58,014 nucleotides of DNA, taken from positions 1 to 58,014 of the forward strand of contig JAQXTR010000099.1 of the NCBI GenBank assembly GCA_029219585.1, given 5' to 3'. Below are positions 19,003 to 39,307 of the stretch, piece by piece (within the stretch, counting starts at the first letter, position 1; every line of letters begins with the position of its first letter). Under the pieces are notes generated by a model, which saw only the letters and a program-made list of their open reading frames with translations, ran no database searches and was not told the origin of the DNA. The translations under genes were made by a program, and so were the position numbers. Source of the stretch: Clostridiales bacterium (GTDB lineage Bacteria; Bacillota; Clostridia; UBA1381).

Positions 19003-19121
19003 TGTATAGCATGCATTAAGTACTTCGTATTTTAATAATACTTAATGCATGCGGTTAATACCTCTTTTGACTAAGTTTTCTTCATTGCATTGACTATAGA
19101 AAACTTAGTCAAAAGCATATA
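19003..19121 (-). repeat. Two-palindrome dispersed element, full copy A
   Basis: This 119-bp copy is in minus orientation. It holds palindrome 1 (19065-19114, 17-bp arms TTTTGACTAAGTTTTCT) and palindrome 2 (19009-19052, outer arms GCATGCATTAAGTA). Palindrome 1 is identical base for base to copy C when reversed. Palindrome 2 carries a paired change (GCA/TGC instead of GCT/AGC) that keeps its stem. It fills the space between the convergent HAD-GtrA and proS genes. Confidence 0.85.
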
Positions 19122-23967: not shown

Positions 23968-24993
23968 TTAGTCAATCTCGACAATCCAGCCCTCAGGAGC
24001 TTCAATTGTACCCATCTGGATACCGGTGAGAGTCTCGCGCAGCTTTGAAATTGTAGGGCCCATCTCATCCATGCCGCTGGGGAAGCATATTTCATTGCCG
24101 TGGTCATTAATTTTGCCGACCGGTGAAATAACTGCCGCAGTACCGCAAAGACCGCATTCTGCAAAGTCCTTGACTTCATCAAAATAAACTTCTCTCTGCT
24201 CAACCTCAAGTCCGAGATAATGCTCCGCAACATACATAAGCGACCGTCTTGTAACTGAAGGAAGAATTGAATCCGACTTAGGTGTTACGATTTTATTATC
24301 CTTTGTAACAAACAGGAAATTTGCACCGCCTGTTTCCTCAACCTTTGTACGCGTCTGCGGATCAAGATACATATTTTCATCAAAGCCCTTGTTATGAGCG
24401 TCAACAATTGCGTGCAGGCTCATAGCATAGTTAAGCCCCGCCTTTATATGACCTGTTCCGTGCGGAGCTGCGCGGTCAAAATCAGAAACTCTTATTGTTA
24501 TCGGCTTTGCGCCTCCCTTGAAGTACGGACCAACCGGAGTTGTAAACACTCTGTACTGGAACTCTTCAGCCGGCTTAACACCTATTACCGGATTAATGCC
24601 AAACATATACGGTCTGATATATAAGGTAGCCCCTGTGCCGTAAGGAGGCACAAAGCTCTCGTTTGCCTTTACAACCTTCTTGACTGAGTCCACAAAGCGA
24701 TCGGTCGGGAATACCGGCATTTCCATTCTCTTTGCCGAGTCTGCAAAACGCTCTGCATTAAGATCCGGTCTGAAAGTAACAATTTTGCCGTCAACTGTGG
24801 TATACGCCTTAATGCCTTCAAATATTGTCTGAGCATACTGCAGCACGCACGCGCATTCACTCATTGTTATCACAGGATCATCAATAAGCTGTCCCTCGTC
24901 CCATGAACCATCCTTCCAGGTCGAAACGTATCTCTTATCAGTCTGTACATAACCGAAACCAAGATTGCTCCAATCTATGTTTTTCTTCTCCAT
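23968..24993 (-). CDS. ilvE: Branched-chain amino acid aminotransferase
   Basis: IlvE moves the amino group between glutamate and the keto acids of Val, Leu and Ile, using PLP. The product is 341 aa, fold-type IV, long (clostridial/BCAT2-like) form. The PLP lysine is Lys184 in HGTGHIKAGLNYA. Other family motifs are QTIFEGIKAY, TLYIRPYMFG and the late segment ECGLCGTAAVISPV. ATG 24993 is preferred, with GGAAG about eight bases upstream. The transcript leader of about 150 bases contains the shortened palindromic element B. Confidence 0.95.
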   Translation of the reverse strand: MEKKNIDWSNLGFGYVQTDKRYVSTWKDGSWDEGQLIDDPVITMSECACVLQYAQTIFEGIKAYTTVDGKIVTFRPDLNAERFADSAKRMEMPVFPTDRFVDSVKKVVKANESFVPPYGTGATLYIRPYMFGINPVIGVKPAEEFQYRVFTTPVGPYFKGGAKPITIRVSDFDRAAPHGTGHIKAGLNYAMSLHAIVDAHNKGFDENMYLDPQTRTKVEETGGANFLFVTKDNKIVTPKSDSILPSVTRRSLMYVAEHYLGLEVEQREVYFDEVKDFAECGLCGTAAVISPVGKINDHGNEICFPSGMDEMGPTISKLRETLTGIQMGTIEAPEGWIVEID

Positions 24994-25045
24994 TGTAAAT
25001 ACTTCCTTTCTATGTAAGCATATCCTCTGACACGGATAATTATAA

Positions 25046-25110
25046 TATATGCTTTTGACCGCTTGCATTAAGTACGATTAAAATACAGGGTACTTAATGC
25101 AAGCTATATA
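25046..25110 (+). repeat. Two-palindrome dispersed element, deleted copy B
   Basis: This 65-bp copy keeps the left end TATATGCTTTTGAC, lacks the rest of palindrome 1, and keeps palindrome 2 (25061-25104, 15-bp arms GCTTGCATTAAGTAC) identical to copy C, plus TATATA. The missing piece is 54 bp. It lies in the 5' leader of ilvE, in reverse sense to that transcript. Confidence 0.85.
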
Positions 25111-37929: not shown

Positions 37930-38048
37930 TATATGATTTTGACTAAGTTTTCTATAGTCAATGCAATGAAGAAAACTTAGTCAAAAGAGGTCTTAACCGC
38001 TTGCATTAAGTACGATTAAAATACAGGGTACTTAATGCAAGCTATATA
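37930..38048 (+). repeat. Two-palindrome dispersed element, full copy C
   Basis: This 119-bp copy is in plus orientation. Palindrome 1 is at 37937-37986 (17-bp arms TTTTGACTAAGTTTTCT, 16-base loop) and palindrome 2 at 37999-38042 (15-bp arms GCTTGCATTAAGTAC). It begins TATATGA and ends TATATA. It fills the gap between the anti-sigma and vWA genes, and its right end supplies the anti-sigma stop codon. Confidence 0.88.
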
Positions 38049-39307
38049 ATAGAAAATAATAAATCCGCTATTTCCTGACTGTCCATCTCCTCCGTCGTTA
38101 TCATATACGCTGTATCATAACTCTTCATACAGAATAAATATGACTGCTCCTTTTTAAATGCTGCAAGCTGAATATTGCTTATACTGCTTTTCACAACCTC
38201 GGGTGAGCTGAGGATTGAGTCTGCAAAGGTTGTGTCACGCGATGTAAGTATGCTTACAAATCTGCCGCCGTCACCTGTAAAGGTGAAAATTCTTGTATCA
38301 TTTTTCAATTTTCCGTTGCCGTCCACAGAAAAATAATATGAATTGTCACCGGAATATTCCATGTCATCACTCAGCTTCAGTCCATTAATAATATCAGTAC
38401 CCAGATAATCGAAATACATCTGATTATCCCATTTCTCGGTATGATATGTCTCGTCTGCCGCAGTATCCTCCGATACCTCCGCTGTTTGGTACATAAGCGC
38501 CGAAAGAACAGTCGGCGAATTCATTCTTAACGTCACTGCCCCTGTCGGAAACGGAATTACAAGCGATCCCCCCGTATCCTCTGAAACGGAGCTGACCGAT
38601 TCATTGGATTGTTCTGCAACATCGGACTGCAACACCATACGTGTCTGCATCTCTGTCTCTTTCAGTCCGCCATCATCTTTTTGGATATTTCCGTTCGTTT
38701 CCTCGGAAACAGTTTGGTTGTCATGTGCATCAGATTTCTGTGAAGAAGACAGTGTCTGCGTCCGGTTGCTCTCAGACTGAGGTGTCGGTATCGTATATAC
38801 ATTTAAAGCAGATTCCGTGTTAATGCCTTCAAAAGCATTATGCGCAGAATACTCATCTGCTTTATTTTCAGGTGCTGTCTTTTTCTCAGGTACTGTCTTT
38901 TTTTCGGGTATTGTTGCCGTTTCGCCGTATGCGGAGGTATTTTTCTTTTCTGCCGTCTCACTCTTGGCAGGCTCCGGAACAGAAACAGATTTCTCCTCTT
39001 TCTTCTCCGTCCTCTTGTCCGAAGCTTCAAACGCCTGTTCAGCCGATACGGAAAACCTTTCCTGCGGTACAGCCGTTTCTGTTACAGCCGTTTCAACAAT
39101 AACTCCATCATCACTATGGTTAAAATCATATCCCCTGACAGCCGCAAAAACAGCAACCGCTGCCGCTATTGTGCTGATTGCCGCAATTACCGGTCTTGCA
39201 TCATATTTTTTACGCTGCCGCGCAAGCACTCGGCTCTTAAGCTCATCACTCGCCTTTATACCGTCGAACAGTTCTTTATAATTGCTGTAAAGCTCTTTAT
39301 CCTCCAT
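38042..39307 (-). CDS. Probable anti-sigma factor with extracytoplasmic sensor domain
   Basis: This 421-aa membrane protein directly follows an ECF sigma gene, the usual place for its anti-sigma factor. Residues 1-38 are cytoplasmic and short (IKASDELKSRVLARQRKKYD). One helix spans about 39-57. A long Glu/Lys/Pro/Ser/Thr-rich spacer at about 60-280 includes a short repeat (PEKKTVPEKKTAPENK). A folded outer domain at about 285-421 resembles nothing I can name. The spacer would let the outer domain reach through the wall. No zinc-binding anti-sigma motif (HxxxCxxC) is present. The last codons run into element C, whose end supplies the TAG stop. Confidence 0.75.
   Translation of the reverse strand: MEDKELYSNYKELFDGIKASDELKSRVLARQRKKYDARPVIAAISTIAAAVAVFAAVRGYDFNHSDDGVIVETAVTETAVPQERFSVSAEQAFEASDKRTEKKEEKSVSVPEPAKSETAEKKNTSAYGETATIPEKKTVPEKKTAPENKADEYSAHNAFEGINTESALNVYTIPTPQSESNRTQTLSSSQKSDAHDNQTVSEETNGNIQKDDGGLKETEMQTRMVLQSDVAEQSNESVSSVSEDTGGSLVIPFPTGAVTLRMNSPTVLSALMYQTAEVSEDTAADETYHTEKWDNQMYFDYLGTDIINGLKLSDDMEYSGDNSYYFSVDGNGKLKNDTRIFTFTGDGGRFVSILTSRDTTFADSILSSPEVVKSSISNIQLAAFKKEQSYLFCMKSYDTAYMITTEEMDSQEIADLLFSII

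Follow-up and report, generated by a model that had tools for sequence, protein, structure and literature searches.

The question raised by this locus is what kind of element is formed by two large palindromes that lie between short AT-rich tags and recur at several sites. The window, i.e. the whole stretch of 58,014 nucleotides that was analysed, belongs to the draft genome of a Clostridiales bacterium (G000; 2,031,739 bases in 99 contigs, 92% complete). An earlier note on this DNA described a unit of 119 bp present in three copies (A, B and C) and suggested that it was a small non-coding mobile family. The features concerned, together with a twin of copy B elsewhere in the genome, are as follows.

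19003..19121, minus strand: copy A, full length (119 bp), from the subfamily whose hairpin 2 has GCATGC arms; its right end reads TATACA
19065..19114, minus strand: hairpin 1 of copy A, a 50-bp palindrome identical to that of copy C
19009..19052, minus strand: hairpin 2 of copy A, 44 bp
25046..25110, plus strand: copy B, internally deleted (65 bp), with both ends and hairpin 2 and without hairpin 1
37930..38048, plus strand: copy C, full length (119 bp), which departs at 1 position from the main-type consensus (10 copies)
37930..37935, plus strand: left terminal tag of copy C, TATATG
37937..37986, plus strand: hairpin 1 of copy C
37999..38042, plus strand: hairpin 2 of copy C
38043..38048, plus strand: right terminal tag of copy C, TATATA
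C6:108476-108540 of G000: twin of the 65-bp form of copy B (L016)

Copy C opens with the tag TATATG and, after 1 base, the first palindrome (50 bp, outer stem of 17 bp); a spacer of 12 bp separates this from the second palindrome (44 bp, stem of 15 bp), after which comes the tag TATATA. The first five letters, TATAT, are found in all complete rows of the element alignment. A recount agreed with the layout described previously. Copy A (reversed) and copy C, both of 119 bp, share their ends and are identical at 109 of 119 positions, namely 50/50 in palindrome 1, 11/12 in the spacer and 37/44 in palindrome 2, in which A has GCATGC arms as claimed while B and C have GCTTGC/GCAAGC. Copy B retains both the left end TATATGCTTTTGAC and palindrome 2, its last 56 bases matching C at 55, and is indeed 54 bp shorter (65 vs 119 bp). 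All three copies are predicted to fold strongly as RNA (z of -10.04 for C, -8.83 for A and -5.45 for B), copy C on either strand, and the DNA folding of C and B gave z of -10.35 and -5.45, respectively. For each of five sequences, none of 200 shuffles was as stable, which rules out chance hairpins. An unfiltered covariance model run over the whole window recovered the A, B and C sites at E <= 0.0025, the next match having an E of 0.74. None of the 4227 Rfam families matched the window at its gathering score and, at E 0.1, the sole match at six loci was TPP-like and lay beside the element rather than within it. The identification of the element as an intrinsic terminator was rejected, as no terminator-like site was found when copy C was scanned.

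The claim that all copies lie between genes requires qualification at two of the sites. At its right, copy C overlaps the end predicted for an ORF on the minus strand (38042-39307), the TAG stop of which comes from the element, so that the C-terminus of the product may have been altered by the insertion; this ORF has a predicted length of 421 aa and no Pfam match. Furthermore, one ORF call (23968-25068) extends into copy B unless a later ATG is used. Copy A is flanked by genes encoding a HAD/GtrA protein and a class II tRNA synthetase, the latter presumably of the prolyl type, and copy B by genes encoding an aminotransferase class IV protein and an S30AE protein, while copy C lies upstream of a VWA/YfbK gene.

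The check proposed in the earlier note, a genome search with the 119-bp sequence, revealed many dispersed copies beyond the three known. The DNA search of G000 returned 41 rows, 15 of which were palindromes matching the opposite strand of the same copy. Among the 26 that remain, 13 are full or nearly full copies (11 spanning all 119 positions, A spanning 117 and L009 spanning 115), and the other 13 comprise copy B, its twin and 11 fragments that lack one end. The right-end pattern, allowing up to 3 mismatches, gave 29 matches in G000; since the backwards control gave 12, weak (3-mismatch) matches were counted only with supporting context (L178 and L179). The further sites of G000 are listed below.

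C25, C11, C27:63627, C69, C6:1734, C83:61844, C44, C83:71161, C23, C39 and C49: the 11 one-ended fragments
C3:660-766: diverged full copy, added by model R1
L176: 27-bp copy in which the two ends are retained and hardly anything separates them, from the right-end pattern
L178: 16-bp right end, from the right-end pattern
L179: single-hairpin relative, from the right-end pattern
L177: doubtful hairpin, from the right-end pattern

Altogether, G000 contains about thirty sites of the two-hairpin element: 13 full or nearly full copies, 1 diverged full copy, 3 internally deleted derivatives that keep both ends (65, 65 and 27 bp) and 12 one-ended fragments. Copies A and L010 form a subfamily separate from the main type. 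Three left-end fragments (L020, L021 and L022) end at or just past TTTTCTATA, the loop of hairpin 1.

Outside this genome, diverged relatives that share the arrangement of the element (TATATR, hairpin 1, spacer, hairpin 2, YATATA) were found in two genomes, so that the family is present in 3 of the 391 class genomes searched, G000 included. The congener G001 contains 1 copy, and G027, from another genus of the same family, contains 7 full copies of a 104-bp sibling of the element. A pattern search of 70 genomes of the family yielded 2 positives, and model R1 yielded 3 among 95 genomes of the order at E 0.001. Model R2, applied at E 0.0001 to the 391 class genomes (sampled evenly from a larger group), recovered the same three and no relative in the other 388; weak relatives may be missed because the large searches used stricter filters. 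Wider spread was sought and rejected, as a pattern scan of genome contigs (possibly excluding the window's own genome) returned 7 stretches, four from G027 and three being unrelated hairpins from Hymenobacter, a Firmicutes MAG and Aeromonas. Viral carriage was likewise discarded: the pattern hits on viral contigs (L055-L057) lack a second hairpin within 120-200 bases to either side and appear to be chance matches. No match to copy C was found among the phage (50,697) and plasmid (72,556) records searched. The patchy presence is compatible either with horizontal arrival followed by loss or with descent from an old family that most lines have lost.

The copies in G000 have sharply defined ends. 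They lie in unrelated surroundings, as an all-against-all comparison of the flanks of 14 copies (200 bp per side) gave no non-self matches at E 0.001. Empty sites were sought by comparing the joined flanks of 11 of 17 loci, a set lying outside the A, B and C sites, with 15 congeners, in none of which the main-type element matched as a DNA query. Such orthologous sites, which the earlier note had named as support for mobility, were seen at three of the six loci that were aligned, in one case cleanly. The junction at L011 is spanned by matches of the joined flanks in 6 congeners, which lack about 120 bp. The element is also absent from the 3 congeners aligned at L008 and the 4 aligned at L006, the intergenic part being less alike at both loci than at L011; at L008, the match extends across the junction in 1 of the 3 congeners, with many gaps. 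At L004, L005 and L010, the flank is conserved on one side only. The dispersed copies, unrelated flanks and empty sites thus support the view of a small non-coding mobile family.

The insertion point can be read from a nested copy in G027, in which L026 lies inside another repeat at GCGGA-TA-GGCTC. The uninterrupted form of this repeat, GCGGATAGGCTC, is restored by removing 104 bp and leaving one TA, which identifies the insertion point as TA; when the flanks were rejoined with one TA, none or TATA, the scores against the uninterrupted repeat were 76, 65 and 69, respectively. This site fits insertion at a TA target, with either duplication of the TA or no duplication, both of which give the same letters.

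The account that we consider quite likely is that of a short, non-coding, non-autonomous mobile element composed of tags and hairpins, the folded ends of which would be read by a putative transposase acting in trans, with neutral decay after insertion. Besides the evidence from copies, flanks and empty sites, this account draws on the nested insertion of L026, the patchiness among related species, the deleted forms in which the two ends are retained and the stem pairing maintained between lineages (see below). The transposase would be encoded elsewhere and may now be missing or belong to a family outside those tested. It would recognise the tag and the hairpin in folded form, probably while the DNA is single-stranded, in the manner of RAYT/IS200-type enzymes, and the element would be inserted at TA-containing AT-rich sites. 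Recognition of folded ends is favoured, as an inference, because a tag placed against a hairpin is reminiscent of REP units, and also of PATEs with their near-terminal palindromes. The inserted copy would be mostly neutral and would subsequently decay, and copies that land in 5' leaders would add mRNA hairpins by accident.

A conventional MITE that duplicates TA, with duplex ends read by a DDE transposase (IS630/Tc1-mariner or IS5 subgroup) and hairpins that are incidental or serve the enzyme as internal binding sites, is a possible but rather doubtful explanation. It draws on the TATA at both ends and the TA of the nested site, and passages of PMC2229807 describe TA at the termini of Correia, ERIC and RUP elements as well. 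In addition, the deletion forms keep both ends, and the interior seems less important than the ends, to judge from the B-type and 27-bp copies. However, no terminal inverted repeat is found beyond TATAT, no DDE_3 (IS630) match was obtained at E 0.001 in any of 12 draft genome assemblies, all three hosts included, and the paired stem changes between lineages, described below, are left unexplained.

For an inverted repeat beyond TATAT, the shuffle fraction was 0.20-0.80 in 5/5 representatives and, when TATAT was also shuffled, 0.05-0.65. The proposal that the arms TTGAATAAGT and TTGCATTAAGT are one motif constituting a terminal repeat was abandoned, as the shuffle test did not support it. Each TATATR tag is set against a hairpin and, because the ends match no better than shuffles beyond TATAT, recognition of both ends by one protein would have to depend solely on the hairpins and the tag. 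In G000, TATATA is followed by G at 13 of 19 right ends, while no comparable preference is seen for the base that precedes the left end; in G027, the base before the left end is C in 6 of 10 cases (by eye).

The families tested as mobilisers were Y1_Tnp and DDE_3. At E 0.001, Y1_Tnp (IS200/IS605) had no match in the draft assemblies of G000 and G027, whereas G001 contains one such gene, encoding a protein of 246 aa. The best element match at this locus (E 0.074) lies inside the Y1_Tnp gene itself, no convincing copy being found beside the gene, and no better match was found with model R2 at eight Y1 loci. Since 5 of 9 other genomes carry Y1_Tnp without the element, the gene is not associated with it. 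A longer autonomous copy was sought at five partial-end loci (L019-L023) and rejected, as no longer, coding copy was present and the translations between the element ends contained no recognisable transposase. The gene beside L023, which starts 14 bp outside the right end, is one that we take to be serine-recombinase-like. Because the two main hosts show neither the IS200/RAYT nor the IS630 enzyme type, the nature of the mobiliser becomes a testable question.

These results also bear on the assignment of the element to the REPINs in the strict sense, that is, to a RAYT/IS200 system. The two inverted hairpins, each with a tag at its outer foot, in about 100 bp are comparable to the REP doublets described in excerpts of PMC3116915, and a Y1_Tnp protein is present in G001. 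On the other hand, the tag is TATATR rather than the GTAG or CGTC by which families are defined in sections of PMC3733652, and Y1_Tnp is without a match in G000 and G027, the two richest hosts, so we regard this assignment as improbable. We give equally little credence to a model in which a folded single strand moves via its TATATR-tagged hairpins and a transposase outside the known IS200/RAYT families, the letters of the stems being free to vary as long as they pair.

Whether the stems are kept paired was addressed with 18 aligned copies from two genera. Standard pairs occupy 93.5% of pair cells vs 88.0 in shuffles, 26 cells are changed on both sides vs 7.6 (0/500 shuffles), and the covariation score is 0.163 vs 0.067 (0/500), falling to 0.004-0.061 when the partners are slid. 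Two other counts, pairs with both partners altered (5 vs a shuffle mean of 4.7) and further pair types (12 vs 11.9), show no excess, and few independent events are represented because the aligned sequences fall in few lineages. The outer arms of hairpin 2 read GCTT, GCAT, GATT, GC or GGTC according to lineage, the partner arm being complementary each time; with C3, G001, L015 and L179 added, the arms still vary between lineages and are mostly complementary. Pairing is imperfect in the diverged lineages, with a one-base bulge in hairpin 2 of G001 and inner mismatches in C3 and L179.

Within a genome, the pattern is different. Among 10 of the 13 full copies of G000 (the main type, with A, L010 and the shorter L009 left out), 40 changes were counted, 16 in the 64 stem columns and 24 in the 55 unpaired columns (p = 0.083). 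Of the stem changes, 14 break a pair, 2 yield G-U and none is compensated. The earlier statement that both sides of the stem changed together, with pairing kept, is thus correct between lineages but not in individual copies. Because the stems are paired between lineages and undergo uncompensated decay within the genome, pairing seems to be kept by the mover and not by a job at each site. In our reading, pairing counts while a lineage moves and receives no upkeep at resting sites, although correction of palindromes during replication could be a simpler alternative for some of the paired changes. The lineage-level changes are relevant to the question of whether elements of this kind are read in the form of folded DNA.

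Another explanation would be a regulatory element or functional RNA, the spread of which was due to its regulation of the genes below it. In its favour, 16 of 28 classified copies are located <=60 bp upstream of a predicted start, compared with 34% of the window's intergenic TA sites and 27% of a second pool (binomial p = 0.015 against the window figure, post hoc and with crude gene calls). Moreover, one copy (L006, G000:C36:33230-33348) has a leader terminator before it and thiC after it, with a TPP-riboswitch-like sequence further upstream (RF00059, 29.9 bits, under the cutoff of 54.3). Nevertheless, the orthologous sites of congeners are without the element, the stem changes mostly break pairing and are never compensated, with stems not clearly slower to change, and copy C has no terminator-like site. 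Relative to the adjacent start, both orientations occur (9 copies sense, 8 opposite, counting the 16 upstream copies and B, measured by hand), and the three downstream genes looked up (thiC, homoserine O-succinyltransferase and lrgA) share no common theme. A regulatory origin of the spread therefore appears improbable. Under the preferred reading of a mobile element, the copies in 5' leaders, such as that at thiC, represent natural experiments in adding hairpins to mRNA. Gaps between convergent genes hold 1 of the 26 copies with two neighbours, vs 12% of the window's intergenic TA sites and 21% of the second pool. L003, L004, L009 and L013 were found by reading to lie 3-11 bp past a TATAAT-like box, and several copies, judged by eye, directly follow terminator-like or promoter-like sequences.

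The earlier remark that no named family has this layout was too strong. CIR, of Caulobacter and Brucella, is the nearest bacterial layout found: passages of PMC2229807 describe a linker that joins two long stem-loops, TA at the termini, the absence of a terminal inverted repeat and a location outside genes, features in which the present element is alike. The comparison with CIR is by description only; CIR carries GANTC at a loop, whereas GANTC occurs in none of 17 copies here. PATEs of Haloquadratum, according to excerpts of PMC3119063, also have near-terminal palindromes at both ends without terminal inverted repeats, are too short to code and include core-deleted forms. However, PATE palindromes are related there to IS605-type transposons, while no Y1_Tnp was found in G000 or G027 and the element model matched none of the eight Y1 loci at better than E 0.074; PATEs are likewise described without target duplication, whereas the one informative site here fits TA duplication or none. 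REPINs and BIMEs share the inverted hairpin pair and a similar size, and are predicted to move as one doublet in the same excerpts of PMC3116915, but differ in the foot tag, in the RAYT-type gene (0 in the two main hosts, 1 in G001) and in occurring in hundreds rather than tens of copies. RUP of Streptococcus pneumoniae is, in parts of PMC3049150 and PMC2229807, a 107-bp, AT-rich, non-coding intergenic element with TA ends; its terminal repeats are common with IS630-Spn1, and it is commoner between convergent genes, in contrast to the element studied here, with no such repeat, no DDE_3 protein and a single convergent copy. Double-hairpin elements of Allomyces fungal mitochondria, as cited in a portion of PMC2800124, are likewise small and apparently mobile two-hairpin units, although they are organelle elements for which mobility via RNA was suggested. 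With regard to MITEs in general, the element is short, non-coding, multi-copy and dispersed and has empty sites, but lacks terminal inverted repeats.

No description of this element was found in the titles or abstract openings of the papers that searches of the open-licence PMC literature listed. The family is real, mobile and non-coding. Its sequence is new to the collections searched and its kind is already known; it adds a sequence-distinct member to the small set of two-hairpin bacterial mobile repeats.

Two copies in G027 carry further short sequences. At L064 (C136, 160 bp, minus strand), a two-hairpin copy is interrupted by another short repeat; the latter has matching 11-bp ends, GAGCCTATCCG...CGGATAGGCTC, with TAA on either side, and resembles a MITE that produced a TNA-type duplication, its ends being presumably of the IS5 type. 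At L065/L066 (C180), a sibling copy contains, as judged by eye, about 60 extra bases in hairpin 1 with an inverted repeat of their own.
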